NCBI RefSeq assembly: GCF_003430825.1 | Contig: NZ_CP024047.1 | Coordinates: forward strand, 2,294,001-2,358,000 | Length of the DNA stretch: 64,000 bases | Reading direction: 5' to 3' | Source of the DNA: Natrarchaeobaculum sulfurireducens | GTDB lineage: Archaea > Halobacteriota > Halobacteria > Halobacteriales > Natrialbaceae | Shown here: piece by piece, positions 38,123 to 63,192 of the stretch | How positions within the stretch are numbered: the first letter of the stretch is position 1 | How the letters are laid out: each line of letters opens with the position of its first letter | The notes under the pieces: generated by a model | Databases searched by the model: none | Seen by the model: only the letters and a program-made list of their open reading frames with translations | What the model was told of the DNA's origin: nothing | Translations under genes and position numbers: made by a program

Positions 38123-39937
38123 ATGTGTGGGATCATCGGTCACGTCGGAGAGGGTAACGCACTGGAAACGCTGCTGACCGGGCTCGAGAACCTCGAGTAC
38201 CGCGGGTACGACTCGGCGGGCGTCGCCGTCCAGAACGGCTCCGGAATCGCTGTCGAGAAGCGCTCCGGTGAAGTCGACGAACTGAAAGCTTCGATTCAAG
38301 ACGTCTCGCTCGAGGGACGTGTCGGCATCGGCCACACGCGATGGAGCACACACGGCCCGCCGACGGACGCAAACGCGCATCCGCATACGGACGAGACGAA
38401 AGACGTCGCCGTCGTCCACAACGGGATCATCGAGAACTACGCCGAACTCAGAACGTGGCTCAAAGCGAACGGCTGTGAGTTCACGAGCGATACCGACACC
38501 GAGGTCATCCCTCATCTCATCCAGTACTACCTCGATGAAGGGCTGGCCGGCGAGGCGGCGTTCCGAAAGGCGATCGAAGAGCTCGAGGGTAGCTACGCCG
38601 TCACGGCGATACTCTCTGACGAACACGTCCTCTATGCGGCCCGGAAGGGATCACCGCTGGTCGTCGGCATCGAGGACGACGAGTTCTTCCTCGCGAGCGA
38701 CGTTCCCGCGTTTCTCGAGTACACGGACAGCGTCATCTACCTCGAAGACGGCGATGTCGTCGTCGTCGACGAAGACGGAATCGAGTGTACGGACCTCGAG
38801 GGGAATCCAGTTTTACGCGAGCCCGAAACTGTCGACTGGGACCCCGAACAGGCGGGGAAAGGCGAGTACGATCACTTCATGCTCAAGGAGATCCACGAAC
38901 AGCCGACGTCGCTGGCTCAGGCGATCGAGGGTCGGATCGACCCCGAGTTCGGCGATCTCTCCCTCGAGGGGTTTCCTTACGGTGCGTTCGGCGACGTCGA
39001 CAGTGTTCAACTCATCGCGTGTGGGACATCATATCACGCGGCGCTGTACGGAACGTTCGCGCTCCGAAAGGCCGGCGTTCACGCTACCGCACTGTTGGCC
39101 AACGAGTACAGCGTCTCGGCCCCGCCGATCACCGAGGATACGCTCGTGATCGCGGTCACCCAGAGCGGGGAGACGGCGGATACGCTAAGCGCGCTTCGGC
39201 AAGCGAACGCCGGGGGCGCACGGACGGTGACCGTCACGAACGTCGTCGGCTCGACTGCCGCCAGAGAGGCCGACGACGCGCTGTTCATCCGCGCCGGTCC
39301 CGAAATCGGCGTCGCCGCGACCAAGACCTTCTCCTCGCAGGCCGTCATGCTCACCCTGTTGGCCCAGCGTATCAGCCAGGACCTCCGCGGACGCGGCTCC
39401 ACCGACCTCGCGTCGCTGCTGCCCGAACTGGCCCGGATGCCCGCCGCCATCGGGTCCGTCCTCGAACACTCTCGGGCGGAGGCGATTGCTGAGCGGTACG
39501 ACGGAAGCCAGTCGTACTTTTTCATCGGCCGTGGCCTCGGCTACCCGGTGGCACTCGAGGGAGCGTTGAAGTTCAAAGAGATCACGTACGAACACGCCGA
39601 GGGGTTCGCTTCGGGTGAACTCAAACACGGCCCGCTCGCGCTCGTCACTCCCGACACACCCGTCTTTGCCGTCTTCACCGGCGAGGAAGACGAGAAAACC
39701 CTGAAGAACGCCGAGGAGGCACAGACACGGGGTGCGCCCGTGATCGCCGTCTGTCCCGACGGCCACGCCGCGACGGAGGTCGCAGACGCTCACCTCGAGA
39801 TCCCCGAGACGGATCCGAGCCTCGCCGGACTGCTCTCGAACGTGCAGTTACAGCTGGTTTCTTATCACGCCGCTGACCTCCTGGATCGGCCGATCGATAA
39901 GCCACGAAACCTCGCGAAAAGCGTTACCGTGGAGTAA
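38123..39937 (+). CDS. glmS: Glutamine--fructose-6-phosphate aminotransferase (isomerizing)
   Basis: 604 residues. N-terminal class II glutamine amidotransferase with catalytic Cys2 (MCGIIGHVG) and IGHTRWSTHG; two SIS domains follow (IACGTSYHAAL, VTQSGETADTL; FFIGRGLGYPVALEGALKFKE in part), ending with the invariant KPRNLAKSVTVE. It makes glucosamine-6-phosphate from fructose-6-phosphate and glutamine, the first step to UDP-N-acetylglucosamine. The next enzymes of the route are encoded close by at 40434 and 42338, but on the opposite strand, so the pathway is clustered and not a single operon. Confidence 0.95.
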   Translation: MCGIIGHVGEGNALETLLTGLENLEYRGYDSAGVAVQNGSGIAVEKRSGEVDELKASIQDVSLEGRVGIGHTRWSTHGPPTDANAHPHTDETKDVAVVHNGIIENYAELRTWLKANGCEFTSDTDTEVIPHLIQYYLDEGLAGEAAFRKAIEELEGSYAVTAILSDEHVLYAARKGSPLVVGIEDDEFFLASDVPAFLEYTDSVIYLEDGDVVVVDEDGIECTDLEGNPVLREPETVDWDPEQAGKGEYDHFMLKEIHEQPTSLAQAIEGRIDPEFGDLSLEGFPYGAFGDVDSVQLIACGTSYHAALYGTFALRKAGVHATALLANEYSVSAPPITEDTLVIAVTQSGETADTLSALRQANAGGARTVTVTNVVGSTAAREADDALFIRAGPEIGVAATKTFSSQAVMLTLLAQRISQDLRGRGSTDLASLLPELARMPAAIGSVLEHSRAEAIAERYDGSQSYFFIGRGLGYPVALEGALKFKEITYEHAEGFASGELKHGPLALVTPDTPVFAVFTGEEDEKTLKNAEEAQTRGAPVIAVCPDGHAATEVADAHLEIPETDPSLAGLLSNVQLQLVSYHAADLLDRPIDKPRNLAKSVTVE

Positions 39938-40433: not shown

Positions 40434-41618
40434 CTACCGGTCGCGGTCGACGACCTCGCCCGGTGTCGTCGTCGCGCCGGCGGTGAGTTTCAGTCCCGGA
40501 GTCAGACTCGAGTTGATCCCGGTTTTGACGCCGTCGCCGACGACGACACCGAACTTGCGCCGGTCGGTCGAGAGGCGATCGCCTTTCACCGCAAATCGGA
40601 CGTCCCCCCCGTCGTGACGGAGGTTCGCGACGGTCGTCCCCGCGCCGAAATTCACGTCGCGGCCGAGGACGCTGTCGCCGACGTACGAGAGGTGATTGAC
40701 CGTCGCCCCCCGTGAGAGGACGCTGTTTTTGATCTCGACTGCGTTGCCGACCGACGCGTCCTCGCCAAGCAGCGTCGCCCCTCGAACGTAGGCGTTCGGC
40801 CCGACGGTCGCCCCCGACCTGATCAACACCGGCCCCTCGACGACGGCTCCCGGCTTCACCGTCGCACCGGCCTCGACGACGACGGTCCCCCCGAGGTGGG
40901 CTGCGTCGCTGACCGTGCCGTCGATTCGACGCTCGAGGTCGCCCAGCTTCCACTCGTTGGCCTCGAGCAGCTCCCAGGGTCGGCCGACGTCCATCCATCG
41001 GGCCGTCGTCACCGGCGTGACGGCGAACTCGTCGATGACGCGGGCGAGAACGTCGGTAATCTCGTGCTCGCCGCGTTCACTCTGTGCGACGTCGAGCCAG
41101 TCGCGGGCGACGCCGGGGAAGGTATACGCACCGGCGTTCGCGAGGTTCGTCGGGGGATCGGCAGGTTTCTCGACGATGTGATCGATCGTCCCGTCGGCGT
41201 CGGTGCGTAACACACCGTACTGTCGCGGATTCTGGACCTCGACCGCACAGACCGCCGGACAGGCGTCGAACAGTCGTTCGATCGCGGCCGGATCGTACAG
41301 GTTGTCGCCGTTCAGGACGGCGAACGGCCCCTCGAGGTGCTCGCGGGCGACGCTGACGGCGTGGGCTGTCCCCGCCTGTTCGTGCTGGACGGCGTAGTCG
41401 ACGGGTCGACCGCGATACTCCGTCCCGAAGTACTCTTTGACCGTGTCCGCTTCGTAGCCGACGACGAGGACGACTTCGTCGGCACCGGCGTCGATGGCTG
41501 CGTCGACTGTATGGGCAACGAGCGGTCGGTCCGCCACCGGTAACATCGGTTTCGGCACAGACGCAGACAGCGGTCGGATCCGGGTTCCCTCTCCCGCCGC
41601 GAGAACGACTGCTTTCAT
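40434..41618 (-). CDS. glmU: GlmU-like bifunctional sugar-phosphate nucleotidyltransferase/acyltransferase
   Basis: 394 residues. The N-terminal ~230 residues form a nucleotidyltransferase with LAAGEGTRIRPLS and KPMLPV, then LNGDNLYD. The C-terminal ~145 residues are a left-handed beta helix of hexapeptide repeats (GATVKPGAVVEGPVLI, GATLLGEDASVGN, VKTGINSSLTPG). In archaea this architecture makes UDP-N-acetylglucosamine: acetylation of glucosamine-1-phosphate, then uridylyl transfer. The genomic position between glmS and the GlmM-like gene supports that role over the related glucose-1-phosphate thymidylyltransferases. Confidence 0.88.
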   Translation of the reverse strand: MKAVVLAAGEGTRIRPLSASVPKPMLPVADRPLVAHTVDAAIDAGADEVVLVVGYEADTVKEYFGTEYRGRPVDYAVQHEQAGTAHAVSVAREHLEGPFAVLNGDNLYDPAAIERLFDACPAVCAVEVQNPRQYGVLRTDADGTIDHIVEKPADPPTNLANAGAYTFPGVARDWLDVAQSERGEHEITDVLARVIDEFAVTPVTTARWMDVGRPWELLEANEWKLGDLERRIDGTVSDAAHLGGTVVVEAGATVKPGAVVEGPVLIRSGATVGPNAYVRGATLLGEDASVGNAVEIKNSVLSRGATVNHLSYVGDSVLGRDVNFGAGTTVANLRHDGGDVRFAVKGDRLSTDRRKFGVVVGDGVKTGINSSLTPGLKLTAGATTTPGEVVDRDR

Positions 41619-42337: not shown

Positions 42338-43675
42338 CTATTCGATCTCCCGTGTTTGAGCAGCCGAGGCGTCTACGACGAGTCCCGTGGCCGTCTCGAA
42401 GAGCCGTTTTGCGTCCGACTCCGCTCGAGCCTCCGCGGTGACCCGGATGACGGGTTCGGTCCCGCTGGCCCGGATCAAGAACCAGCCGGTGTCGGTCTCG
42501 ACGCGAACGCCGTCAAGCGTTTCGACGTCGTCGAATCGGCGATCGACCTGTCGGGTCACCGCCGCCATGGTGGCGCGTTTGTCCGTGACCTCGATCGAGT
42601 CGCGTCGGATCGGGTACCGGTCGATCGCGTCGACGAGTTCGGAGAGCGGGCCCTGACTCGCGACCAGTTCGACGAGTTTGCAGGCTGCAAGCGGGCCGTC
42701 CGGGCACCGTGTTTCCTCTGGCCAGATCCACGCACCGCTTGGCTCGCCGCCGAAGACGACGTCCGCTTCGGTGGTCCGTTCGGCAACGTAGACGTCACCG
42801 ACTCTCGTCCGAGTCACGCTAGCACCGACGGCCGCGAGCGCGTCGTCGACGGCGAGACTTGTGTCGACCGGAGCGGCGATGCGATCGCCCGCCCCCGCAG
42901 CTCTGCTGGCGAAGATCGCCAACAGCGCGTCTTTCGGCACGAACGTTCCGGTCTCGTCGACCGCCATCATTCGATCGGCGTCGCCGTCGTGAGCGATGCC
43001 GAGGTCGGCGTCGGTCTCGCCGACGAACGTCGACAGCGCCTCGAGCGACTCTCTCGTGGGTTCGCTCGGACGACCGGGGAACGCACCGTCGGGCTGGCCG
43101 TTCAGCGTTCGGACGTGACAGCCGAGGTCGGCGAGCACCGTCGGTGTCACCCCACCCGCGCCGTTGCCCAGGTCGACGACGACGCTCGGCGCTTCCTCGA
43201 GGTCGACGGCCTCACGTAGTTGGGCGGCGTGTTGGGTGCGGGCCGACTCGCGACGGCGTCGCCGTCCCAGTTCGTCCCATCGGGACGGGTCGTAGTCCTC
43301 TTCACGGATGCGGCGTTCGATTGCGTCGCGACGGTCGGGACCGAACGCCTTCCCGGACGGTGTCCAGAGCTTGATCCCGTTGTCCGTCGCCGGGTTGTGC
43401 GAGGCCGTGATCACGATTCCTGCGTCGGCGTCGTAGCGACCGACCGCCCTCGCGACCGTCGGCGTCGCCTCGAGGCCGACGTCGATCACGTCCGTCCCAC
43501 ACTCACGCAGGCCCGCGGCGACTGCGTCGGCGAGCATCAGCCCGCTCTCTCTGACGTCCCGGCCGAGGACGACCGTGTCGTAGCCTGCAGAGCCGACCGC
43601 CCGACCGACCGACAGCGCCAGCTCCGTCGTTACCGTCTCCCCGACGGGACCGCGAATGCCGCTGGTTCCAAACAT
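42338..43675 (-). CDS. glmM: Phosphoglucosamine mutase/phosphohexomutase (GlmM-like)
   Basis: 445 residues. Alpha-D-phosphohexomutase with FGTSGIRG at the N-terminus, active-site serine S92 in TASHNPATDNG, the metal loop AHDGDADRM (about 225-233), the sugar-binding GGEPSGAWIW and the phosphate-binding RASGTEPVIRV. It converts glucosamine-6-phosphate to glucosamine-1-phosphate, linking glmS to the GlmU-like enzyme; related archaeal proteins also accept mannose or glucose phosphates, so specificity is inferred from the cluster. Confidence 0.87.
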   Translation of the reverse strand: MFGTSGIRGPVGETVTTELALSVGRAVGSAGYDTVVLGRDVRESGLMLADAVAAGLRECGTDVIDVGLEATPTVARAVGRYDADAGIVITASHNPATDNGIKLWTPSGKAFGPDRRDAIERRIREEDYDPSRWDELGRRRRRESARTQHAAQLREAVDLEEAPSVVVDLGNGAGGVTPTVLADLGCHVRTLNGQPDGAFPGRPSEPTRESLEALSTFVGETDADLGIAHDGDADRMMAVDETGTFVPKDALLAIFASRAAGAGDRIAAPVDTSLAVDDALAAVGASVTRTRVGDVYVAERTTEADVVFGGEPSGAWIWPEETRCPDGPLAACKLVELVASQGPLSELVDAIDRYPIRRDSIEVTDKRATMAAVTRQVDRRFDDVETLDGVRVETDTGWFLIRASGTEPVIRVTAEARAESDAKRLFETATGLVVDASAAQTREIE

Positions 43676-43884: not shown

Positions 43885-43891
43885 TATATAT
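43885..43891 (+). promoter_or_regulatory. TATA box of the MarR-like gene
   Basis: TATATAT upstream of the HTH gene at 43929, predicting transcription start near 43915 and a leader of about 14 bases. It excludes the in-frame start at 43890. Confidence 0.55.
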
Positions 43892-43928
43892 GGGTCGTCT
43901 CCGAATCGGTGCGGTACACGCAGCCCAC

Positions 43929-44183
43929 ATGAGCGCAACCGAACACGATTCCGACGTCGAGGGTGAGCAGACGACGATCACCGACCTCTCTCCCAGTGCG
44001 AAACTCGTCTACAAAGTCCTCGAATACGAAGGCGAGCTGACCCAAGAAGAGATCGCAACCGAGTCACGACTCTGTGCGCGAACCGTCCGGTACGCGCTCG
44101 GCAAACTCGAGGACAGCGACCTGATCGCCAGCCGCGTCTGTCTCGACGATGCCCGACAATCGAACTACTGGATCCGCGACTAG
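43929..44183 (+). CDS. Small MarR/winged-helix regulator
   Basis: 84 residues from the ATG at 43929. A single winged helix: TDLSPSAKLVYKVLEYEGEL, then TQEEIATESRLCARTVRYALGKLEDSDLI, and a short wing (SRVCLDDARQSNYW). There is no ligand domain. Very small one-domain regulators of this type are frequent in haloarchaea and may act as architectural or competence-like switches. It is convergent with the FemAB-like gene and overlaps its end by four bases. Confidence 0.78.
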   Translation: MSATEHDSDVEGEQTTITDLSPSAKLVYKVLEYEGELTQEEIATESRLCARTVRYALGKLEDSDLIASRVCLDDARQSNYWIRD

Positions 44184-45190
44184 CGCAGCTTTCGGTACTG
44201 ATCGACCACGAGGTCGAGCCCGAGCGAGCCGTCGGTGATCTCGTAATGGGTCTCGAGCCGCGGATTGAACTTCGCCTTGTACCGATTGATACTCGGGACG
44301 CCGGCACCGACCATGTCGTAGCGAGCGATCTCGTTCCGGAGACCATCGCGCATGACGTACCAGTCGAGCAGGTCGTTGACCGGTAACTCGAGATCCGTAT
44401 CGGGCTTGACGCCGCCTTGCCACCGGTACCGGGTCCGGGCCGATTCGACGACGAGGATGCCGCCGACGAACTCGCCGTCGATGCGACAGACGTAGGGCCT
44501 GAGCGATCCGTCGGGGAGCCGATGGTAGGCCTTCTGGGCGAATTCGGTACTCAGGTGGAACGAGCGGTCCTGATTCTCGTATCGTCTGTCGACCTGTTCG
44601 ACGATGCGTTCGACGTCGGTGATGTCACCTTCCTCGACGACGTAGGCGTCTTCGTCCGCGTTCCGGATGTTGTTCCGGGCGTCCCCGCTAAAGCGGTTCA
44701 ACAGCTCTTCTTCGTCTCCCTCGAGGTCGACGACGTACGTATAGCCCGGTTTCACCTCGTAATCGTTCCAGACGAACGGGCGGACGTCGTCGAACTCTGC
44801 GGCGATGAACTTCGAGTAGATCGGCGAGAGTTCCTCGTCGACCCACTCGAGACAGCCCTCGAGAAAGCGTTTGATCCGGCGGTCGGCCTTGCGCTGTTTC
44901 AGTTTCTCGACGTTCAACACGGCTGGACCGAGATAGGGCGACCACGAGCGGGGAGCCGGTGAGAACGCGCCGGTGAACGGTCCCCTCGTGTACTCGAAGA
45001 TCGGAAAGATCCCGACGGCCTCCTGGCCTTTGAACCCAACCAGCAGGTGCGGTCTCGTGCCAGTGTCGGCGGCTTGAAGACGGAGGGCTTCAGCCCGAAA
45101 GAACGGGTTGGTCCCGCCGGAACGTTCGACGTAGCGGTTCCACTCGTCGGCTTCGGTTCGTGGGTTGAGAACCCTGAGTTCGACGGTCAT
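44180..45190 (-). CDS. FemAB/GNAT-like aminoacyl or acyltransferase
   Basis: 336 residues. The double-GNAT fold of FemAB-like proteins is suggested by WNRYVERSGGTNPFFRAEAL at the N-terminus (the FxxxxW/F substrate lobe), LLVGFKGQEAVGIFPIFEY, the basic ARNNIRNADEDAY that resembles the conserved R-x-x-I-R-x-A/a-x-k segment, and YRWQGGVKPD. Members attach amino acids or acyl groups to glycans or lipids. The start overlaps the stop of the upstream hydrolase gene (ATGA), so the two proteins are made together and probably act on the same molecule. Substrate unknown. Confidence 0.78.
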   Translation of the reverse strand: MTVELRVLNPRTEADEWNRYVERSGGTNPFFRAEALRLQAADTGTRPHLLVGFKGQEAVGIFPIFEYTRGPFTGAFSPAPRSWSPYLGPAVLNVEKLKQRKADRRIKRFLEGCLEWVDEELSPIYSKFIAAEFDDVRPFVWNDYEVKPGYTYVVDLEGDEEELLNRFSGDARNNIRNADEDAYVVEEGDITDVERIVEQVDRRYENQDRSFHLSTEFAQKAYHRLPDGSLRPYVCRIDGEFVGGILVVESARTRYRWQGGVKPDTDLELPVNDLLDWYVMRDGLRNEIARYDMVGAGVPSINRYKAKFNPRLETHYEITDGSLGLDLVVDQYRKLR

Positions 45191-46818
45191 AGATATCCCA
45201 GGTCGGAGAGACGATCTTCGACCGCGCTGTGTTCCGTCGCTGCGATGGCGTTCGACTCGTAGGCTGGATACTCCGCTTTTGCGGTCTCTTCGACGATCGG
45301 GAGCGGCTGGCCGTCCATCTCCGCGTCGATCGGGACGCCAAACAGCGAACAGATCGTCGGCGCGACGTCGAAGATCGTCGGGCTCGCTCCCGCGAGCGAG
45401 ACGTCCTCGTCGAACGCCGGACCTGAAGCCGCGACGACGCCGGTTCGCTTGTGGTTCCAGGACTCCATCGGCTCGCCGAACGTTCCCTGGCCGATATCCG
45501 CGGTAATCGCGGTGTCGAAGTCGGCCGGCACCGTCACGATGTCGGGTGCGTCCTCGAGGTATGGCCCCTCGAAGTACGTCTCTCGGGGTTCGACAGCGTC
45601 GAAGATCGGCTCGCCGTCGGGTGTTCGAAGGCCGGAGAGGTCCTCGATCACCGACTCTCGGAGGGCCTCGTACGCCGATTCGGGGACGACGCCGTTTGGC
45701 TCCCGACTCTCGAGGTTGATTCGCAGACCCAGTTCGCTCTTCGACCGCATGTAGACCCGCGACTGTGGGAAGTCGACCTGCTCGCTGGCGGCCCGGATCA
45801 TCCCGTTCGGCACCCGTCTGCCGATCGGCTCTTTCAGGCCGACGCGATCGAGCGCGCCAGCGACACGCTGGGTCGTGAGCCCGACTTTCGCCGCGGCGTT
45901 CATGGCGTGTTCGATCGGGCCCGTCTCGTGTCCACCGGCGTCCTCGCCCTCGAGTAAGTCGTTCTCCCAGGACGCCGTCCAGTTAGGCATCCCTTCGCCA
46001 CCGCTGCGGGCGGCGACGTCGCCGCGTTCCCGGAGGTACTCGTTGATCCGGAACTCGGGGCCAGAGACCGTCCCGATCCCGTGGTCGCTGACGACCAGGA
46101 CGTTCTCGGGCTCGAGTTCCTCGATGGTTTCCTCGACCTGCTGGTCGACTGCACGGTAGACGGCTTCGATCGCCTCCTTGTCTCCCGGCCGTTCGTGGAA
46201 CACGCTGTCGGTCTGTTGGAACTGTAGAAAGCCGAAATCCGGCTCGATCCGCCTGGAGAGGTATCGAAACGCCTTACCACGGTATTCGATGGTTCGTTCG
46301 TATCCCTCGATCGACCGATCCGGTTCCGGACCGCTCTGGGGATAGACCCGATAGCCGCCACAGGCGAGTTTCACATCCTCGAGGATCCCCGTCGGGTGAC
46401 AGTCGGGGTCTTCGGGAGCGGTCATCCCCGGAATCAACGCCCCGTCGAACTCGCTGGGTGGGTGCGTGACGGGGACGTTGACGACGACGCTCGAGTAGCC
46501 GTGTTCGGAGAGCAGTTCCCAGACCGAACGCGCCCTGACGTGGGTGGCGTTCACCACGTCCCAGTCGTAGCCCTCGAACGAGAGAAAGTCATAGACGCCG
46601 TGTTTTCCCGGATTCTTCCCGGTGAACAGCGACGGCCAGGCACTCGCCGTCCAGGGCGGAATCTGGGACTGGAGTGGCCCGCTCGCGCCTGTGTCGAACA
46701 GTTCGCGTAGCGTCGGAATCGTCCCCGACTCGAACAGTGGCTCGAGTACGGGCCGACACCCGGCATCGAGCCCGACGACGAGCAACCGCATGCCGTCTTC
46801 GTCGGACGAATCTACCAT
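45187..46818 (-). CDS. Alkaline-phosphatase-superfamily hydrolase (type I phosphodiesterase/nucleotide pyrophosphatase)
   Basis: 543 residues, cytoplasmic by prediction. VVGLDAGCRPVLEP holds metal ligand D18; PPWTASAWPSLFTGKNPGKHG holds the likely nucleophile T57; LVVSDHGIG supplies D245 and H246. The intervening FQQTDSVFH matches the superfamily D-x-x-x-H ligand pair. Such enzymes hydrolyse phosphodiesters, pyrophosphates or transfer phosphoalkyl groups; in many surface-glycan clusters they act on nucleotide-linked or lipid-linked sugars. Overlaps the FemAB-like gene by four bases. An ATG at codon 10 is an alternative start. Confidence 0.85.
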   Translation of the reverse strand: MVDSSDEDGMRLLVVGLDAGCRPVLEPLFESGTIPTLRELFDTGASGPLQSQIPPWTASAWPSLFTGKNPGKHGVYDFLSFEGYDWDVVNATHVRARSVWELLSEHGYSSVVVNVPVTHPPSEFDGALIPGMTAPEDPDCHPTGILEDVKLACGGYRVYPQSGPEPDRSIEGYERTIEYRGKAFRYLSRRIEPDFGFLQFQQTDSVFHERPGDKEAIEAVYRAVDQQVEETIEELEPENVLVVSDHGIGTVSGPEFRINEYLRERGDVAARSGGEGMPNWTASWENDLLEGEDAGGHETGPIEHAMNAAAKVGLTTQRVAGALDRVGLKEPIGRRVPNGMIRAASEQVDFPQSRVYMRSKSELGLRINLESREPNGVVPESAYEALRESVIEDLSGLRTPDGEPIFDAVEPRETYFEGPYLEDAPDIVTVPADFDTAITADIGQGTFGEPMESWNHKRTGVVAASGPAFDEDVSLAGASPTIFDVAPTICSLFGVPIDAEMDGQPLPIVEETAKAEYPAYESNAIAATEHSAVEDRLSDLGYL

Positions 46819-47043
46819 GGACTACGCTTCTCCCCGTCAGGCTTTGTTATGCAAACGCTTTGTCACTGTAAGCCGACTCTTCGTCGACCTGTGTCGGGCC
46901 GGGCAGTCCGCCGTCGTCGACTGTAGGGCCAGCCTGCCGTGACGGGTGCGATCGTACCCATCGCATCACTAAGAGGATGATTCACCGAATAGGAAGTGCA
47001 ATGTGTGGGTTGCTCCCAGTGTCTGGGGCTGGGTGGGTGCTGG

Positions 47044-48162
47044 ATGATTAAGGAAACGCCATCGCTATTCGTGCCGTCACCGTCGACGAACCAGGGACAC
47101 AGCGTCGACTCGTTCTTGAATCGACACGCTCAGGAGTTCGTCTTCTATGGGTCCGGAAAAGCGGCGTTGTATGATGGACTCGCCGGACTCATCGAACCAG
47201 GTGAGACCGTTCTCGTCCCGGCGTACCTCCCTGACGCCGTCGTCGAACCGCTGTACGACCTCGAACTCGAGACGGAGTATTACGCCCTCGAGCCGTCACT
47301 TGCACCTGATTTCGTCGATCTGGAACGACGGCTCGACGACGACGTGATCGCCGTTATGTCGGTGAACTACTTCGGGTTCCCGCACCCGGGACTGGACGAG
47401 TTACGATCGATCGTCGCTGACTACGGGTGTTATCACGTCGACGATAACGCACACGCACCGCTCAGCGTAGACGGCGAAACGGTACTCGGCACGCGCGGGC
47501 ATCTCGGGGTTACGAGCCTGTGGAAGCTGTTCCCCGTTCCGGACGGGGCGATACTCTATCTGAACGACGAACAGGCCGCCGAAGCGTACGATCCCTCCTC
47601 GTCGGCTGGCGTTCGGGATGGATTCGACGGTTCCGACTGTCGATACCTCCTGAAGTCGGCGTTCCGTGACGTATTCGATCGAAACGGAACGATTCGTCGG
47701 TCGATCGACGCCATACTGGCCAGCCGCAACGACGGACGCTCCGTTGGCGGCCCTCGAGAACGGTACGAAAAAGGGAAACGACCCATGTCGAAACTCTCGG
47801 CGTACGTCGTCGAGGAGTCAGACCCACGGGCCATCAGGCAGGCCCGCCGACAGAACTACCTGGCCTGGCGGCGAGCCCTCGAGTCCCGAGACGACGTCGA
47901 GTTCGTCTTCGAGTCGCTTCCCGAGGGGATCTGTCCACAAGTGGCACCGGTCAGAGCGGCCGGTCACGAGCAGTTCCGTGCGGAACTCGACCGCTGTGGC
48001 GTTGGCGGTGCGAAGAGATGGCCACGCCTCTCACCGCGGGTTCGAGAGAAGCCGACCTACGAGACCGCGACGAGACTCGCTCGAGAGATCGTCACGCTTC
48101 CGGTCCACCAGCACATCGCTCCGTCGACGATCCTCGACGTGGGGAGACAGCTTCGGCAGTGA
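47044..48162 (+). CDS. DegT/DnrJ/EryC1-fold PLP-dependent aminotransferase-like protein
   Basis: 372 residues from the ATG at 47044; the extended frame from 46996 would add a cysteine-rich leader of 16 residues. Fold type I PLP features: YGSGKAALYDGL near the N-terminus, VPAYLPDAVVEP, HVDDNAHAP (D134) and the candidate Schiff-base lysine K161 in SLWKLFPVPDGA. The usual DegT sequence around the lysine is S-x-x-x-T/S-K; here SLWK departs from it. It may aminate a nucleotide sugar or act in glycan assembly. Divergent from the FemAB/hydrolase pair with 225 bases between starts. Confidence 0.72.
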   Translation: MIKETPSLFVPSPSTNQGHSVDSFLNRHAQEFVFYGSGKAALYDGLAGLIEPGETVLVPAYLPDAVVEPLYDLELETEYYALEPSLAPDFVDLERRLDDDVIAVMSVNYFGFPHPGLDELRSIVADYGCYHVDDNAHAPLSVDGETVLGTRGHLGVTSLWKLFPVPDGAILYLNDEQAAEAYDPSSSAGVRDGFDGSDCRYLLKSAFRDVFDRNGTIRRSIDAILASRNDGRSVGGPRERYEKGKRPMSKLSAYVVEESDPRAIRQARRQNYLAWRRALESRDDVEFVFESLPEGICPQVAPVRAAGHEQFRAELDRCGVGGAKRWPRLSPRVREKPTYETATRLAREIVTLPVHQHIAPSTILDVGRQLRQ

Positions 48163-56114: not shown

Positions 56115-56115
56115 A
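55987..56115 (+). CDS. Possible upstream short ORF, 42 residues
   Basis: GTG start, TAA stop at 56113-56115, overlapping the next gene's ATG as TAATG, an arrangement typical of translational coupling. The product (TANRRSNDLRAGSTARAGGG and polar residues up to LSGGPY) has low complexity and no known family. If used, it would give the downstream regulator a coupled start. It could equally be an untranslated leader. Low confidence. Confidence 0.25.
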   Translation: MTANRRSNDLRAGSTARAGGGSDGRQTDEPVRADQPLSGGPY

Positions 56116-56714
56116 TGTCGTCGATCGATACCTCACTTCCCGACGAAATCGCCTCGTCAGTCTCCGACTCCGAAGCTGACGATGGACTCTCGAAAGACGT
56201 AATTTTCGAACTCCTGAAGAACCGCCGCCGCCGCGAAGTCCTCGCGTACTTGCTCGAGGCCGAAGAGACGGTCACGCTCGGTGAACTCGCCGAACAGATC
56301 GCGGCGTGGGAAAACGATACGGACGTCAACGCGCTGAGTTCCGACCAACGAAAGCGCGTCTACGTCGCGTTGTACCAGACCCATCTCCCCAAGATGGACG
56401 ATGCAGGAATCGTCGAATACGACCAGGATCGGGGGCTGATCTCGCTTGCGGACAACGCCGACCTGTTGATGATGTACCTCGATACGGACAATCACAAACA
56501 GGATCGCTGGGATCGGTGGTACGCCGGACTCAGCGTGGTCGGTGCCGCGTTCGTCGGCGCTGCAGTCCTCGAGGTGCCGCCGCTTACGGTTGCCCCCACG
56601 CTCGGAGTTACCAGCGCGGTCGTTTTCGCGTTCCTCTTGCTCTCGATCGTACACGTCGTTACGAACCGTCGACGAGAACAATCCGTCGACGGAAAACTGT
56701 CCCGGATCGATTGA
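56115..56714 (+). CDS. DUF7344-type winged-helix protein with C-terminal membrane helices
   Basis: 199 residues. Residues ~25-115 are a winged helix (KDVIFELLKNRRRREVLAYLLEAEETVTLGELAEQIAAWEN, LYQTHLPKMDDAGIVEYD), a group abundant and mostly uncharacterised in haloarchaea. Residues ~135-183 form two membrane helices (LSVVGAAFVGAAVLEV and VTSAVVFAFLLLSIVHVV), and the tail is basic. A DNA-binding domain anchored in the membrane suggests a one-component signal regulator. Divergent from tfb. Confidence 0.8.
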   Translation: MSSIDTSLPDEIASSVSDSEADDGLSKDVIFELLKNRRRREVLAYLLEAEETVTLGELAEQIAAWENDTDVNALSSDQRKRVYVALYQTHLPKMDDAGIVEYDQDRGLISLADNADLLMMYLDTDNHKQDRWDRWYAGLSVVGAAFVGAAVLEVPPLTVAPTLGVTSAVVFAFLLLSIVHVVTNRRREQSVDGKLSRID

Positions 56715-57260
56715 CCGGACAACGACATTCTCTGCTCGATCGTCACGATACACGAACACCGCTGGGTGAGCCTTCTCGACAATCACGACGAGTTTACCGT
56801 CGATCGTGTCCCTCCTGGTACCGTGATCTCCTACCCGCCACCGCTCGAGGAGCACTCATATCACTCGAGCGGACTCGAAGAACCCGCGGGTGATCGAACC
56901 GTTTCAGGTCTCTCTCGACCGATGGACGGATGAGGCCGTCGCCGAAGGCTCGTCACTCCCGTCCTCTTTTCGGATCTTCCAGTCAGAATTTTTCGTCTAC
57001 CGGTTCGAAAATACCTCGACGTAACCGAGTCGGGAAGGACTTTTATTCACACCAGCCGTACGCTCGAGTGGCTCCCGACAACCGTCACCCAGTACCGGAG
57101 CAGTTCGCGTGCCAGCTTACTGTTCCCGAACGGGGGCCACTTTCGAGTGCTGGCCGCCTCTATCGCGTGTCACTTCGTTCTCGAATCGGCTCGAGCCATA
57201 GCGCAGCAATCCCTCCTCGTCGACACACCTCCCTCAAGTCGGTTCGATCGAATTGCTGCC
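56715..57260. other. Intergenic region, no gene seen
   Basis: 546 bases. A TATA-like TTTTATT at 57041-57047 faces the plus strand, but no start codon lies about 27 bases beyond. No repeat, hairpin or RNA gene was recognised. The 3' end of the Tat-protein gene begins at 57261. Confidence 0.45.
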
Positions 57261-59048
57261 CTACTGATCGCGGGCGTTGTACTGGACGTCGACGTTGGCG
57301 TCACCGACGATAGTGAAGTCCTCGATGTCACCGTCGAACCAGTAGGCGTCGAGCCCGTTTTCGAGGGCGCCACGAACCTGCCGGTCCTCGATGACGTCAC
57401 CCTCGTCGATCGTCGCGTCGCGGTACTCGGATTTGACGACCGTGCCACTGACCGCAAACGAGTACGCGCTCGGTCCGTCTGCATCCGACCCGTCGATGAC
57501 GAGCGCGTGTGGGAGCAGTTCGTACTCGCCGTAGTCGCTCGGGTCGATCTCTTCGTCGTCGACGAACACCGCCGCTTCACCCTCGGCGAACGTCACGTCG
57601 GTGACAGCGCCAGAAAACCGAAACACCTGGCTCGAGTCAGTCACCGAACTCTGAACGGTCGACCCCGAGATGGTCGTCGCCTCGTCTTCCGGATCCTCCT
57701 CGGAGTCGAGTTCGATCGTCCCGTCGACGGTGATCTCGAAGTTCGTCGGCGCGCCCCGCCCCTCGACCTCGAGGATGTGGGGGAGGTCTTCGCCGTACTC
57801 GCCGGGATCGATCTCTTCGCCGTCGAGAGAGACCGTCGCCGGACCGTCGACTGTGAGCTGTTCGAGGTCACCGCTGAAGCGAAACGCGTCTTTCCAGTCG
57901 GCGACGACACCGTGGGCGATCCCGCCGTCGATCCGGGTCTCGTCGTCGATCGTCGCCCCGTTGTGTGTCGACGGCTCGAGTTCGCCAGAGACTTCGAACT
58001 CGTATCGGGTGACGTCCGCGTCGTCGCCGTCGAACAGGAGGAGGTGCTCGAGATCGCTGTCGTCTTCGTCGTCTTCGGGCGTTTCGTCGCCGTCCGATCC
58101 GGAATCCGAGCCGCCGGATGCCGCCTCCTCGGGGGACGTTGGAACACCCTCGGGGATCGACAAATCGGCCGAGCTCGAGACGCTCGAGCGCTGGAGGCCG
58201 TTGCCCTGGACGTTGCCGTCGATGGCTCCACCGGACATCTGCGCGGAGCCACTGCCTCGCATCACTGCTGCGTAGGGGTACGAGCCAGCCGCGAAGTGAG
58301 AGTCTTCGATGCTGACGGTGCCGCCGGGCCAGACCCACAGCGGTCGACCGGAGTCTTCGACGTATCCACCCCAGCCGGGACCGTAGTCGGTGTTGTCGTT
58401 GTACGCGACGCAGTGTTCGATCCTGTCGTTGCCACCAGCGACGCGGAACGTCGAGACGCCGTTGTTCTTCCCATAACAGTTCTCGAAGCGAGCTGAGCCG
58501 CCGTCGGCCGTGTTCGAACAGTAGAACCCGTTGTTCGGCCAACCCTGAACGTTGCAGTAGCGGAATGTGACGTCACAGTTTGCGTTCCGATGCATGAAGA
58601 CCGCTCCGGGGCCGTGGACGAAGCTCTCGCCTTCTTTGGTCGACCCGTCACCGAGGTAGACGTTCTCGATCAGGACGTCACCGCTCGGAGCGGTGATCGA
58701 GATCATGAACGCGTCGCCGCGGTGGAGCCCTTTGAAACCGATATTTCTGATCGTCGAATTTCCACCCTCGACGAGCAAGAGAACACTGTTACCGTTCGTG
58801 AGGTCGAACAGCTTGTTTTCGTAGGTCTCGCCCTGTTCAATTCGGATCGTCTGGCCGCTGGCGGTGATCTCTTCGTAGTCGTTCGTCGCCGTCGTGGCCC
58901 CTGCCAGAGCCGCACCGGCTGTCGTCACGCCAGCGAGCTTGACGACCGTCCGTCGATCGAGTAACATCTTATTACCGCCGTCAACGGGCGCTGTGCCGTC
59001 TGTATCGGCGGACCGCTGTTCGTCCAGTACCGAGGGTTCGCGTGCCAT
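57261..59048 (-). CDS. Tat-exported right-handed beta-helix protein with three C-terminal repeat domains
   Basis: 595 residues, ATG at 59048 supported by a TATA box 30 bases upstream. Tat signal near residues 28-55: twin arginine LLDRRTVVKLAG, hydrophobic stretch and ATTATNDYEE. Residues ~56-290 are a parallel beta-helix (ENKLFDLTNGN, TIRNIGFKG, IENVYLGDG, FRYCNVQGWPNNGFYCSN). A linker with PEGVPTSPEEAAS and an acidic D/E/S stretch leads to three tandem domains at 336-424, 425-514 and 515-595, each with F-x-F/W-x-G and (in the first two) IDP-x-x-YGE-LPH. A surface or secreted polysaccharide-binding or -cleaving role is inferred; no catalytic residues identified. Confidence 0.85.
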   Translation of the reverse strand: MAREPSVLDEQRSADTDGTAPVDGGNKMLLDRRTVVKLAGVTTAGAALAGATTATNDYEEITASGQTIRIEQGETYENKLFDLTNGNSVLLLVEGGNSTIRNIGFKGLHRGDAFMISITAPSGDVLIENVYLGDGSTKEGESFVHGPGAVFMHRNANCDVTFRYCNVQGWPNNGFYCSNTADGGSARFENCYGKNNGVSTFRVAGGNDRIEHCVAYNDNTDYGPGWGGYVEDSGRPLWVWPGGTVSIEDSHFAAGSYPYAAVMRGSGSAQMSGGAIDGNVQGNGLQRSSVSSSADLSIPEGVPTSPEEAASGGSDSGSDGDETPEDDEDDSDLEHLLLFDGDDADVTRYEFEVSGELEPSTHNGATIDDETRIDGGIAHGVVADWKDAFRFSGDLEQLTVDGPATVSLDGEEIDPGEYGEDLPHILEVEGRGAPTNFEITVDGTIELDSEEDPEDEATTISGSTVQSSVTDSSQVFRFSGAVTDVTFAEGEAAVFVDDEEIDPSDYGEYELLPHALVIDGSDADGPSAYSFAVSGTVVKSEYRDATIDEGDVIEDRQVRGALENGLDAYWFDGDIEDFTIVGDANVDVQYNARDQ

Positions 59049-59524
59049 GCAATCGAGTAATACAATACTACCAGTATAAACTTTCCCTTCTTTTATACTT
59101 AAAATTTACAGATCTTACTAATTGCCTGTACGTTATTTCAGTATAACATGCATTTTCATTCACGAATTATTGTATTTCAGGTCGAATGAGGCAGGTGGTG
59201 TGACATCCAGTTTTTCCATGCCCCCGTAGACTCATCGAAGCAGCAAACACCAGCACACCAACCGTGGACAGAGGTAATACGGTATTACCGGCTCATCGGC
59301 GCGGACGACTCGAGTGAGCGGATCAGGTTTCGTGAACGACCGGCAGAGACAGCCTCCAATGACGCACTTGTGGGCAACGAATGCAAGTCGCGCCAGTGGA
59401 GACGCCGCCGGTCTCGAGTGAACGCTGAAAAACGGGGTGGGAGTGTCGGTTGCGTCAGTGGGACCGAAAGAAAGGGTGTAAAGCGGAGGGGAACGGCGTC
59501 AGCGAGGGAACATGAGCTGGACCG
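59049..59524. other. AT-rich intergenic region between the two Tat beta-helix genes
   Basis: 476 bases. The part next to the large Tat gene (about 59050-59180) is strikingly AT-rich compared with the rest of the window, including TTTTATACTTAAAATTTAC and TTCAGGTC further on. The remainder holds no gene; a TATA-like element near 59280 has no reading frame to serve. The AT-rich block may be a binding region for regulators or chromatin proteins. Confidence 0.55.
59075..59083 (-). promoter_or_regulatory. TATA box of the large Tat beta-helix gene
   Basis: On the minus strand AAGTTTATACT, about 27-30 bases before the ATG at 59048. The same AAGTTTAT core precedes the paralogue at 60466, suggesting joint regulation. 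Confidence 0.65.
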
Positions 59525-60466
59525 TTAGTCGTCGCCCGTGGCGGCTTCCTCGGGGCTCGTGGGGACGCCATCGGGGATGTACGCTTCGGGGTCCGTTCCG
59601 ACGTCGTCCTCGAGTTCGACGTTCGAGCCGTCGTGTTCGACGATGCCAGCGGCCTCGTCGTAGTCGGTGTCGCGGACGACGATGGTGGTGGCCTGACCGT
59701 TCGCGCCGGCGTCGATCGCGGTGTGGTGGCCGTTCATCTCGATCTGGCAGTTCTCGACGTCGATCGTGCCGGGCGCCCAGCCCCAGATGCCGCGGCCTTC
59801 GTAGTCTTCTTCGTCGACGTAAACGCAGGAGTTGGTCACCTTGCTCCCTTCCGTCGCGAGACGGTAGTGAGAGACATAGCAGTTAGCGGCGAAACACTCG
59901 TCGATGTGGACCGTGCCACCGCCGGCGTTTCCGGGCGCGGAGGCGTAGATCGCGTTGTCCGCGAAACCCTGGATGTTGACGTGTTTGAACTCGAGGTGTC
60001 CAGCGTGGTCGGGGCTGACCCAGAAGGCCGTCTCGCCGTGGCCGTTTGGGGCTGCGTTGCCGCTGACGGAGCCGTCGCCGAGATAGACGTTCTCGACCGT
60101 GCTCTCGCCGCCAGTGTCGGCGATCCCGAACGTTCCGGAGCCAGCGCCGGATTCGTTCGCGCCTTCGAATCCGACGTTCCGGATCGTCCAGTCACTGCCC
60201 TGGGCAGTGATGGTGATGTCCTGGCCGGTCGTCATATCGATGAGCTTGTTCTCCCAGGTCTCGTCGGATTCGATCGTGATCGACTGGTTCTCGGCTTCGA
60301 TGACCTCGTAGTCGTCCGTGGCCGTCGCGCCACCGGCAGCGCCGACCGCCGTCGTGGCGGTGGCGACCGCCGCGAGCGAACGAACGTAGCTGCGGCGGGT
60401 TAATCCAGTGTTACGGCCTATAGTCGGAGTGGAATCCGTCTCGGACGTACGGGGGTTCTGCGCCAT
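59525..60466 (-). CDS. Tat-exported right-handed beta-helix protein (paralogue of the 57261 gene product)
   Basis: 313 residues from the ATG at 60466. Tat signal: TRRSYVRSLAAVATATTAVGAAGGATA. The beta-helix region (ITAQGSDWTIRNVGFEG, TVENVYLGDGSVSG, FKHVNIQGFADNAIYAS, ANCYVSHYRLA) follows the larger neighbour segment by segment, and the protein stops after the shared PDGVPTSPEEAATG, just where the other begins its acidic linker. It is thus the beta-helix part alone. Same strand, 476 bases apart. Likely cell-surface or secreted; substrate unknown. Confidence 0.85.
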   Translation of the reverse strand: MAQNPRTSETDSTPTIGRNTGLTRRSYVRSLAAVATATTAVGAAGGATATDDYEVIEAENQSITIESDETWENKLIDMTTGQDITITAQGSDWTIRNVGFEGANESGAGSGTFGIADTGGESTVENVYLGDGSVSGNAAPNGHGETAFWVSPDHAGHLEFKHVNIQGFADNAIYASAPGNAGGGTVHIDECFAANCYVSHYRLATEGSKVTNSCVYVDEEDYEGRGIWGWAPGTIDVENCQIEMNGHHTAIDAGANGQATTIVVRDTDYDEAAGIVEHDGSNVELEDDVGTDPEAYIPDGVPTSPEEAATGDD

Positions 60467-60493
60467 ACACTTGCGTAACCTGATGTTATACTC

Positions 60494-60503
60494 ATAAACT
60501 TTT
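60494..60503 (-). promoter_or_regulatory. TATA box of the small Tat beta-helix gene
   Basis: On the minus strand AAAAGTTTATGAG, centred about 31 bases before the ATG at 60466. The core AAGTTTAT is shared with the promoter of the paralogue at 59048. Confidence 0.6.
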
Positions 60504-61301
60504 CCTTGTAATAAAACATTAGATTCGATGATTGTGTTGGTCTCGATAATGAACTGCGTACGATTTCCGAAAGAAGCATCACGAACATACGAACGAACGT
60601 CACCGCCCACAAGTCGATATTTCCCGGAGAAAAGCCGTATTATTCGGCCTCGAGGGCTGCTCGAAACCGAACAGCGCACCGACCCGATGCTCTGCCGACC
60701 GACGAAACGGATCGGTCGACCGATCGGCGGGCTGCTAACCCTCAGTTACTCCATCCCTCGATCGGCCGAAGTGGTCCCTCAGTTTCGTGCGAAGGTGGGT
60801 GGACGCCTACCGAGAGGGGGCTTCACTCAACCGGCTGGTAACTCGGTGTAGGCTTTCCCCCTCGAGCAGCGGCCCCAGTGTTGGCCCCGCGTGCGGCGAT
60901 CCTTGTTGGCGACCCGACAGCCTCCTGATCGTCCCGACGGACCGTTGCAAGCGACCTGATAAATCCTCGCAGGTGACCGGGTCGTTTGTGGCTGGGCCGA
61001 TCACCCGTGACCGCCACGATGGAGACGTTCGACCGCCGCCGTCCCGCGGAGACTCGAGCGGAGGCGTCCCGTACTCGAGTACAGTCAACGATGAGTCACG
61101 AGTCGCGCATGCGTGCTGCACACGCGTGGCATTTGGAAGTGTCGACAGTCGAGCGAGGCGGTCGAACGCGATCGAAAGAGAGAGTCGGCGATACTCCTCG
61201 AGAGTACGCCTCCTGCCTGTGAGCCTCGTGGTGACTCACAGCGGGATGTGGTGGCCACGACCCGTTCACCGCTCCCTGTGGCGTCTCGAGCCCGGACTGG
61301 T

Positions 61302-61385
61302 GACGGGAACAACTGCAACGGTTTGCACACTGACCGCCGATCCGTCTGGCGGGCAGGTGCGCACTGACGTGCAGTGGCTACTATA
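61302..61385 (+). repeat. 84-bp palindromic intergenic element, copy C
   Basis: Ends GTGCAGTGGCTACTATA, like copies A and B; the left end has decayed (GACGGGAACAACTGC). Matches copy A at 68 of 84 positions by hand. In the inner stem, CTGACCGCC pairs with GGCGGGCAG; one pair (T:A in copy A, C:G here) has changed on both sides. It lies 17 bases after the stop of the GT-C-like gene. Confidence 0.8.
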
Positions 61386-61401
61386 GTTCTGTTTGACGGT
61401 A

Positions 61402-63192
61402 TTAGTCGTCGGCTCTGACGGCGTAGACGTCGACTTCGCCGTTCGAGATGACCTTGTCCGCAGCGGGGTCGCGCTCGACGCCCGCCAGTCCGGCCTCGCT
61501 GTAGTAGAGTTCCTGATAGACGTCGATCTCCCGATTCACGTCGTACGCCGTCACCACGAGGTAGTAGTCCATATCGAAGTAGGCACCGCTGTAGTTTCCG
61601 TCCTCGAACGCCTCGTGGTCGACTTCTCCACTCGCCGCAGTACCGCCGGTCAACGACTCCTCACCCTCGAGGCCGTTGATCGCGTGGTCGTACCGGAACG
61701 GGTCGTACCCGAGCGCGGTGATCGGCTGATCCTCGACGCCGTGGTGGAGGGTCGACTGGTAGCCGCTCATCTTCTCGTCAGTGACGTGCTGGCCCGGATC
61801 GTACATGACCGGCGAGATGAAAAGCGTCATCAGCCCGAGGACGAGAAGCACCCCGAGAGTCAGTGACGCGATGGTATTCGCACCCGGAACCGTCAGATAC
61901 CGTGCAAGGCCGCCGAAGAGGTGTGCAAGTGCGAGCCCGGCGAGAATGGTTACGAGGACGAAGATGAAGCCGACCTGGCGAAACGCCATCGTCGGCGTAC
62001 CAACGAAGTAGAGGGCAAACAGTACCGTCAGCGGCACTAGCGCGAGTCCGAAGTACGTCACGAACGACGCCGCCTCCCGGCTCATCGTCGTCCAGCCGAG
62101 CCAGGTCACCAGGATGAACAGGCCTACGACCACCGCGATTACGGCGGCATCGACGAACATGGTGACGAAGAGTTCGCCCAAGCTGCCGCCGATTTCGGTG
62201 AGCGAGGCCTCCCGTTCGTCTACTTCGGCAGCAGCACCGATGTCTTCGGCAAGGAGTCCCTCTACGAGCCCGACAACTGCGCTTCTGAACCGATCGTTCG
62301 TCGCCGCCCAGACGGTGAAGATCGTCCCGAGTACGACCGTCTGAACGTACGTCGTCGGATGCTCGAGGATCGGGTGGTCCTCGAGTCGGTACTGTGCGAG
62401 AAACTGGACGACACCGATCGCCCCGAAGAGAATAACGACGTTGACCATCTGCTGGGGATGGACCAACAGGAGGGCAAATCCGGTGAGATAGACGAGGAGG
62501 CTAAACGGCGAGATACCCAGCGGGAGCCGCTCGACCGTCGCCCGTCGACGGAGATATGCGACGAACGCGAAGATCACGACAGGAACCAGAAACAGGGCGT
62601 TCGAGTTGGTGTGGATACCCATGTGCGTCGCGATGTTGTTAATCGGCAGGACCATCCAGGAGACGATCGCCGCCAGTCCGACGGCCAGCGCGTTGCCGGA
62701 GATATTACGGACGACGAGCGGGACGAAAATCAGAAACGGCACGAAGAGGACGACCATCGTAAACAGGAGCGCCCGCTCGACCGGGACGCCCCCGAGGAAG
62801 TGAAAGACACCGCCGAACGAGTGAACAGCCGGATAAAACAGCTCGTGTGGCGCTAACTCGCCGTCGACGAGGTCGCGGGTCCAGCCGAGGTGCGTCATCG
62901 CATCGCCCATTCCCGAAAAGCGGTAGTTCCTGATGATCGGGAGACTCACAATCGAGGTGACGACCAGGCCGCCGAGCCCGATCGAAAGCGCTTGATCGCG
63001 GCCCCGACAGGTCAGCGCCGTCCCGACGGCAATCGCTAGCCCGAACGCGAAGCCGAGCCACACCACCGTCGGCGTCCCGGCGTAGACCGACGATTCGTAC
63101 GCGGACGCGGGATTCGCCCGCGCGAGGAACAACGCGAGTGCAACGGCGAGATAGCCGACAGCGAACGTCGCGTCGAGTGCCGGCCGTCTCAT
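61402..63192 (-). CDS. Multi-spanning membrane protein, GT-C-like glycosyltransferase candidate
   Basis: 596 residues with about 12-13 predicted membrane helices and a C-terminal soluble part of ~110 residues (from about 480: YDPGQHVTDEKMSGYQST, GVEDQPITALGYDP). The large first external loop has MGDAMTHLGWTRDLVDGEL, an Asp-His arrangement like the loop motif of GT-C glycosyltransferases (which use lipid-linked sugars at the outer face). This resemblance is by eye; no transferase activity is proven. The gene lies among glycan-related and surface-protein genes, which fits. Divergent from the PP-loop gene. Confidence 0.65.
   Translation of the reverse strand: MRRPALDATFAVGYLAVALALFLARANPASAYESSVYAGTPTVVWLGFAFGLAIAVGTALTCRGRDQALSIGLGGLVVTSIVSLPIIRNYRFSGMGDAMTHLGWTRDLVDGELAPHELFYPAVHSFGGVFHFLGGVPVERALLFTMVVLFVPFLIFVPLVVRNISGNALAVGLAAIVSWMVLPINNIATHMGIHTNSNALFLVPVVIFAFVAYLRRRATVERLPLGISPFSLLVYLTGFALLLVHPQQMVNVVILFGAIGVVQFLAQYRLEDHPILEHPTTYVQTVVLGTIFTVWAATNDRFRSAVVGLVEGLLAEDIGAAAEVDEREASLTEIGGSLGELFVTMFVDAAVIAVVVGLFILVTWLGWTTMSREAASFVTYFGLALVPLTVLFALYFVGTPTMAFRQVGFIFVLVTILAGLALAHLFGGLARYLTVPGANTIASLTLGVLLVLGLMTLFISPVMYDPGQHVTDEKMSGYQSTLHHGVEDQPITALGYDPFRYDHAINGLEGEESLTGGTAASGEVDHEAFEDGNYSGAYFDMDYYLVVTAYDVNREIDVYQELYYSEAGLAGVERDPAADKVISNGEVDVYAVRADD

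Follow-up and report, generated by a model that had tools for sequence, protein, structure and literature searches.

A haloarchaeal FemAB-like transferase, phosphodiesterase-like hydrolase and DegT-like enzyme trio with a possible role in surface-glycan amination and aminoacylation

Results

A recurrent gene pair and trio in haloarchaea

In a 64,000-nucleotide stretch of the genome of Natrarchaeobaculum sulfurireducens (hereafter the window; positions 2294001-2358000 of contig NZ_CP024047.1, genome 3.79 Mb), genes for a FemAB-like transferase, an AP-superfamily phosphodiesterase-like hydrolase (PDE) and a DegT-like pyridoxal phosphate (PLP) enzyme lie side by side. We propose that the trio may constitute a module for the amination and aminoacylation of a surface glycan, a reading on which we find the balance even. 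All three genes are present and intact, the PDE stop and the FemAB start share the sequence ATGA, and the plus-strand DegT gene diverges from the minus-strand pair, all as the initial annotation had described.

The near relatives of the trio belong to the Natrialbaceae. We surveyed 195 genomes of the order (cut-offs E ≤1e-3 for FemAB and E ≤1e-20 for DegT) and found FemAB in 128, PDE relatives in 188 and the DegT family in 36. Linkage was counted over 150 FemAB matches, about 150 listed PDE matches and 38 DegT places, the last figure not counting a second, short DegT piece in genome G117, where the gene is split. At least 116 of the 150 FemAB matches listed lie no more than 3 kb from a listed PDE, always on the same strand, a lower bound since weaker PDEs were unlisted; for 106 of the FemAB matches listed the distance is 200 bases or less, and 99 of these are ordered PDE-FemAB. 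FemAB adjoins DegT in 35 of the 38 DegT places, divergently in 26, all in the Natrialbaceae, and co-directionally (PDE-FemAB-DegT) in nine, all in a second family, f14, so that the linkage has withstood rearrangement. Of the other three places, one is G089:C322 and two, L116 in G073 and L118 in G096, have DegT right after PDE and no FemAB. The neighbourhood tallies, like those of motif targets below, rest on gene calls from a simple open reading frame script, which places some starts and small genes wrongly.

Because the pair and the trio recur across many genomes, their association exceeds chance, and the conserved linkage expected in the initial annotation is borne out by these counts. The PDE-FemAB pair forms the core, to which DegT and, in f14, an AsnB-like amide-forming enzyme are additions. 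Trees of FemAB and PDE from 56 paired loci contain many identical starred groups, so that duplicated pairs will have moved as a unit; the window pair and a second pair of the host, at 2418393, separate in both. One locus at first taken for a distant relative (L008) was rejected as such, since it appears to be the f14 contig L119 (8159 bases in both cases); L119 was dropped from the trees and from the 61-locus and 39-locus motif counts below.

Predicted folds and active sites of the three enzymes

The FemAB-like protein matches PF13480 (6.4e-18, above the cut-off) and, just under the cut-off, PF02388 (3e-5). A plain phmmer search with this protein against the Protein Data Bank (PDB) gave no match, and those with PDE and DegT gave weak ones; profiles did better. 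The AlphaFold2 model (predicted local distance difference test, pLDDT, 90) has the FemABX-type double-GNAT fold of FemX. In VIA-align it scores Z 24.8-26.2 against FemA, FemX and Sba18/Sbb17 with 276-305 residues aligned, Z 17-18 against MprF/PGS enzymes and 2hqy (function unknown), and Z ≤16 against tandem GNATs dependent on coenzyme A (CoA). The Foldseek ranking agrees, with the first CoA-dependent GNAT at rank 25. Residues R172, W257, K305, K307 and F308 are invariant in all 27 aligned sequences. The modelled fold is that of aminoacyl transferases, clearly ahead of acetyl-CoA GNATs, and use of aminoacyl-tRNA is predicted.

These comparisons bear on two alternatives. The first, which we regard as unlikely, is that the protein is an acetyl- or acyl-CoA-dependent GNAT that puts a plain acyl group on the amine made by the DegT enzyme. 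PF13480 does bear the name GNAT acetyltransferase and RefSeq names the homologues GNAT family N-acetyltransferase, but CoA-dependent structures rank clearly under the aminoacyl-tRNA-dependent ones and Wbp-type clusters already hold a hexapeptide acetyltransferase of their own. The second, to our minds very unlikely, is polar-lipid aminoacylation, in which the FemAB-like enzyme would act on an archaeal phospholipid in the manner of MprF and A-PGS and the PDE would cleave or remodel head groups. It draws on MprF, L-PGS and A-PGS being the next structural matches and on the PDB relatives of the AP superfamily, which are phosphodiesterases and phosphonate hydrolases. FemA, FemX and Sba18 nevertheless lie about 7 Z units above MprF and the PGS enzymes, none of the three trio proteins, each of which was checked, has a likely transmembrane segment by prediction, and the neighbours in other lineages are sugar genes rather than lipid genes. 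In the whole of this analysis only the lower-scoring MprF-like fold matches favour lipids over glycans.

The PDE matches PF01663 (2.4e-33; 116.6 bits against a cut-off of 23), and all seven of its nucleophile and metal-ligand positions (D18, T57, D204, H208, D245, H246 and H456) are kept in 25 of 27 relatives. T57 aligns with the active-site Thr of the phosphonoacetate hydrolase PhnA, which is Ala in entry 3t02. In a cluster of f14 that contains AsnB, PDE and DegT and no FemAB (L116:9042-13617 and L118:1-4072), two degenerate enzymes stand side by side, the PDE being without T57, D204, H208, D245, H246 and H456 and the DegT without the PLP lysine.

The DegT-like protein matches PF01041 (3.6e-9; 36.7 bits against a gathering cut-off of 19.8). 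The structures closest to its model are WecE, perosamine synthase, WbpE and Pcryo_0616 (VIA-align Z 27-30, root-mean-square deviation 2.6-3.3 Å), although the deviations from Foldseek are poor, at about 7-13 Å. The PLP lysine K177 is kept in 18 of 20 rows and the D150 column reads Asp in all 20. We assigned the protein a predicted nucleotide-sugar aminotransferase fold. A GTG start at 46996 was rejected in favour of the ATG at 47044: homologues start with the MI at residue 17, and the model has pLDDT <50 for residues 1-15 counted from the GTG, so that the ATG is probably the true start. DegT relatives also occur in bacteria, in the set comprising L168:8168-10973 and L165:3745-10074, as GNAT-DegT-GNAT in Deinococcus proteolyticus and with deacetylase-GNAT-GNAT in Aliiroseovarius. 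The three enzyme assignments agree with the initial annotation, which had named an acyl or aminoacyl transferase, an AP-superfamily hydrolase and an aminotransferase-like enzyme.

A promoter element shared with polysaccharide genes

The PDE gene is preceded by an element (Table 1) that is the sole match in the window at two or fewer mismatches (0.19 expected) and whose position would fit a TATA-like element of a leaderless transcript. Of 62 PDE genes, a count that includes one f14 contig twice, 42 have the form ATAACAAA at 21-38 nt upstream of the start. These take in every one of the 26 Natrialbaceae trio-type loci compared, among which are some that lack DegT. Among the 20 genes without it, 11 are f14 genes within operons and four have a one-base variant. 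In 61 loci totalling 1.106 Mb, where composition predicts 1.4 occurrences, the core ATAACAAAG is found 72 times, and 37 of these matches are PDE promoters. In a further count of 39 loci (51 matches), it precedes PDE 15 times, WbpD ten times, FemAB four times and DUF1616 three times, the rest being single genes, among which is GlmS of locus L053, six matches inside genes and four without a called downstream gene. The core is thus common to PDE, Wbp-like, FemAB and DUF1616 genes across haloarchaea (including L171, L172 and L038), and several helix-turn-helix (HTH) genes lie near.

The host genome contains 13 exact ATAACAAAG matches (5.6 expected; seven in a reversed control). Five of them fall in a 67-kb stretch (2340842-2407278) that starts at the window PDE, where they precede this gene, two more PDE genes, a Gfo/Idh/MocA gene and a DUF1616 gene; the chance of five or more of 13 in such a stretch is 2e-6, for a stretch chosen after the positions were seen. 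The remaining eight precede assorted genes or none that is clear. The WbpD-like and other FemAB genes of the host carry the near variants ATAACAAAA, and none of the glm promoters checked in the window carries the motif. The element stands before PDE and polysaccharide genes and not before the window glm genes, and so is common to the module and the polysaccharide cluster. Upstream of DegT, at 46963-46973, there is a ATCACTAAG-like element, kept in most of the aligned Natrialbaceae loci, which resembles the PDE element with two changes.

Surface-glycan context in archaea

In a paper on Porphyromonas gingivalis (PMC7468200), VimE is proposed to strip an acetyl group and VimA to move Ser or Gly onto the amine of a UDP-N-acetylglucosamine (UDP-GlcNAc)-derived sugar, while WbpS makes the uronamide, so that the pathway yields Ser or Gly on an amino-uronic sugar. 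Its authors link VimA to TIGR03019 and discuss bacteria; the word 'archaea' is absent from the text consulted (PMC7468200). Di-acetylated glucuronic acid is described in Methanococcus N-glycans (PMC4031482).

A FemAB profile matched 60 of 246 genomes of a phylum sample, 40 of them outside the order, and from 20 of these we took 20 loci (L145-L164). In 16 of the 20, FemAB has a VimE-like deacetylase no more than 3.5 kb away, the four without one nearby being L150 (a 3.8-kb contig), L152, L160 and L161. WbpA/B/D/E-, WecB- or GT2-like genes are present in many of them, and PDE in L146, L148 and L162. Outside the order, FemAB genes stand two or three in tandem at L147, L149, L152 and further loci. 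In the FemAB tree, all haloarchaeal sequences form one starred group (42 rows, 100/99), in which four rows make up a branch with VimE-linked genes among them and 38 rows a branch, almost all PDE-linked, to which the window gene belongs.

Within haloarchaea, the PDE-FemAB pair stands beside a Wbp-like gene set in families f6, f7 and f17. The set at L043 comprises WbpD-, WbpE-, WbpB- and WbpA-like genes, GT2, WecB, a VimE-like deacetylase and a second FemAB; its proteins are mostly below equivalog cut-offs, with WecB and the NDP-sugar dehydrogenase above. A row on pHME505 of Haloferax mediterranei reads acyltransferase, DegT, Gfo/Idh/MocA, nucleotide-sugar dehydrogenase, wecB, deacetylase, hypothetical, GNAT, GNAT. 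The host itself carries WbpA/B/D/E-like genes: its WbpD/E/B/A- and GT2-like genes lie at 2369534-2374646 and are 51-65% identical to the haloarchaeal Wbp-like query genes. Its VimE-like gene (2394320) is 55 kb from the trio and nearer to another FemAB (2401628). The host Wbp, VimE and further FemAB and PDE genes all lie 3-65 kb beyond the window. Inside it, 56115-63192 holds an HTH gene (56115-56714), two right-handed beta-helix family genes (57261-59048 and 59525-60679) and a gene for a large membrane protein (61402-63192). In protein clustering these group with genes from surface-polysaccharide loci of other genomes, so that the polysaccharide region of the host seems to start inside the window.

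The f14 operon and archaeosortase A

The f14 operon runs AsnB-like, PDE, FemAB, DegT. Its AsnB-like protein matches the Asn_synthase domain; in the L109 protein no Cys was seen at the second position, where we presume AsnB-like enzymes to have one. In five f14 loci (L109, L110, L111, L114 and L116), the AsnB-PDE-(FemAB)-DegT operon has archaeosortase A (ArtA; TIGR04125 9e-106 in L109) as a neighbour, at no more than about 10 kb.

This proximity would fit a third alternative, one that we consider remote, in which ArtA would use an aminoacylated or amidated sugar, produced by the module, as the acceptor for PGF-CTERM proteins. The model for it is the bacterial linking sugar that serves the type IX secretion sortase; relatives of TIGR03019 and TIGR03108 accompany exosortases in bacteria (PMC7468200). 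However, the closeness to ArtA was seen in one family only. In the host, ArtA is about 400 kb distant, and L115, which has the full trio and AsnB, is without ArtA in its 19 kb. Known ArtA substrates, moreover, carry a lipid anchor.

Neighbouring genes

Table 1. Positions of the trio, the promoter element and neighbouring genes in the window.
Feature	Position	Strand	Basis
FemAB-like transferase, predicted aminoacyl transferase, 336 aa	44180..45190	-	PF13480, AlphaFold2 model
AP-superfamily phosphodiesterase-like hydrolase (PDE), cytosolic, 543 aa	45187..46818	-	PF01663, active-site residues
DegT-like PLP enzyme, divergent from PDE	46996..48162, probable start 47044	+	PF01041, K177/D150
Promoter element TTGCATAACAAAGC of PDE	46841..46854	-	core ATAACAAAG starts 32 nt before PDE ATG
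Small winged-helix protein, 97 aa, convergent with FemAB, possible regulator	43890..44183	+	PF13412/PF01047 weak, below cut-off
GlmM (phosphoglucosamine mutase)	42338..43675	-	TIGR03990 500 bits, cut-off 439
GlmU-like bifunctional nucleotidylyltransferase/acetyltransferase	40434..41618	-	TIGR03992 520 bits, cut-off 292
GlmS	38123..39937	+	TIGR01135 723 bits, cut-off 418

The small winged-helix gene is kept in Natrialbaceae loci (a cluster of 18-19 members), and the other flank of the trio holds a HerA-like ATPase and an XPB helicase, identified by domain and family matches. The three glm genes all lie within 6.1 kb of the FemAB gene; the initial annotation had placed them within 10 kb. GlmS is near the trio in 21 of 23 Natrialbaceae loci, yet any glm gene is near in only two of the 17 loci L041-L057, so the glm genes were rejected as module members beyond the Natrialbaceae; those of the window were likewise rejected as regulon members, the motif being found in the window at PDE alone. 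The glm linkage is therefore family-level synteny, which weakens the connection that had been drawn from it.

That the trio itself is a chance neighbourhood, one family's conserved synteny without functional tie, we hold to be the least credible alternative, since the block XPB-HerA-DegT-PDE-FemAB-GlmM-GlmU-GlmS is indeed conserved whole in the Natrialbaceae but many families have PDE-FemAB between unrelated flanking genes and the f14 DegT is linked to the pair in a different orientation. Such an explanation is hard to hold for the trio; for the glm genes it is likely. Plasmid pHTUR04 of Haloterrigena turkmenica (L167) carries the block GlmS-GlmU-HTH-FemAB-PDE-DegT-HerA, and in other Natrialbaceae a close FemAB homologue is plasmid-borne (131-402 kb); the host copy is on a 3.5-Mb contig.

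Discussion

In the surface-glycan pathway that we propose, and whose step order, acceptor, amino acid donor and PDE substrate we infer, the DegT-like enzyme would act on a nucleotide-activated sugar derived from UDP-GlcNAc and place an amine on a keto group. The FemAB-like enzyme would then acylate a sugar amine with an amino acid from aminoacyl-tRNA, akin to the step proposed for VimA, and the cytosolic PDE would cleave or transfer a phosphoester or phosphodiester in the same pathway, possibly that of a sugar nucleotide or phospho-sugar. The suggestion of a UDP-GlcNAc-derived surface molecule in the initial annotation thus keeps its footing in the Wbp-type neighbours seen elsewhere and in the promoter element that the host shares with polysaccharide genes, and loses the part that leaned on the glm genes.

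Several observations weigh against this proposal. The DegT-like protein reads GSGKxAL and PVPDGA (PxPNGA in most relatives) where we take SGT and GEGG to be the usual stretches of the family, with Lys55 where the phosphate-binding Thr is presumably expected; given the PxPNGA-like stretch, transamination is not certain. DegT is absent from four of 30 same-family genomes in which PDE-FemAB is kept, and so is not obligatory, and the f14 PDE sits inside an operon without the motif. At the window locus there is no deacetylase beside FemAB, and the PDE stands there instead. The window FemAB (P0001) has no NCBIfam match at E ≤1, TIGR03019 included, and is accordingly not filed in TIGR03019 (XrtA/PEP-CTERM FemAB). 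In favour of the proposal, TIGR03019, the family to which VimA is linked, is matched by 23 of 27 relatives at E ≤1 (best E 1.5e-12), though with no more than 45.5 bits among the scores listed against a cut-off of 260.

A more ambitious version, which we consider distinctly unlikely, is that archaea make aminoacylated surface sugars dependent on aminoacyl-tRNA, with the haloarchaeal PDE replacing the VimE step, the divergent DegT supplying the amine, a dedicated ATAACAAAG regulon and, in some lineages, use as an ArtA attachment point. Sugars decorated with amino acids by FemAB-type enzymes have already been elucidated in a bacterial system for protein anchoring; if our proposal is right, tRNA-dependent glycan aminoacylation would extend to a domain without peptidoglycan. 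The PDE-linked form offers a testable gene set for the poorly known surface polysaccharides of haloarchaea, and the promoter element could be used to list the regulon. In the open-access literature searched, we found no paper on FemAB in haloarchaea, with archaeosortase or with the archaeal AP superfamily, and none on archaeal VimA as judged by titles and accessible passages; the one paper that joins FemAB, archaea and polysaccharide deacetylase is by its title on pseudomonads, the one for COG3379 is unrelated by title, and the papers listed for the motif string are on other subjects.

Relation to known systems

The window FemAB resembles FemX/FemA and Sba18/Sbb17 in fold over nearly its entire length and is close to FemX in size, but shares only 12-16% identity with them and comes from archaea, which are without peptidoglycan. 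Like the PF01663 enzymes PhnA and NPP, the PDE has all seven nucleophile and metal-ligand positions; it differs in being cytosolic and in forming a separate family, of which no characterised member was found in this analysis. The DegT-like protein has the fold and the PLP lysine and aspartate of the DegT/DnrJ/EryC1/StrS aminotransferases (WecE, WbpE and Pcryo_0616), and departs from them in its low identity (12-21%), Lys55 and the PxPNGA-like stretch. The closest parallel for the whole is the Wbp/Vim system of P. gingivalis. What the two have in common is a FemAB-type transferase, a sugar aminotransferase and genes for a UDP-GlcNAc-derived uronic acid (PMC7468200), to which f14 adds an AsnB-like enzyme and most of the non-haloarchaeal archaeal loci examined a VimE-like deacetylase beside FemAB. 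The differences are that the window FemAB is paired with a PDE rather than VimE, that there is no type IX secretion system, and that the trio DegT represents a separate, divergent family in addition to the WbpE-like one.

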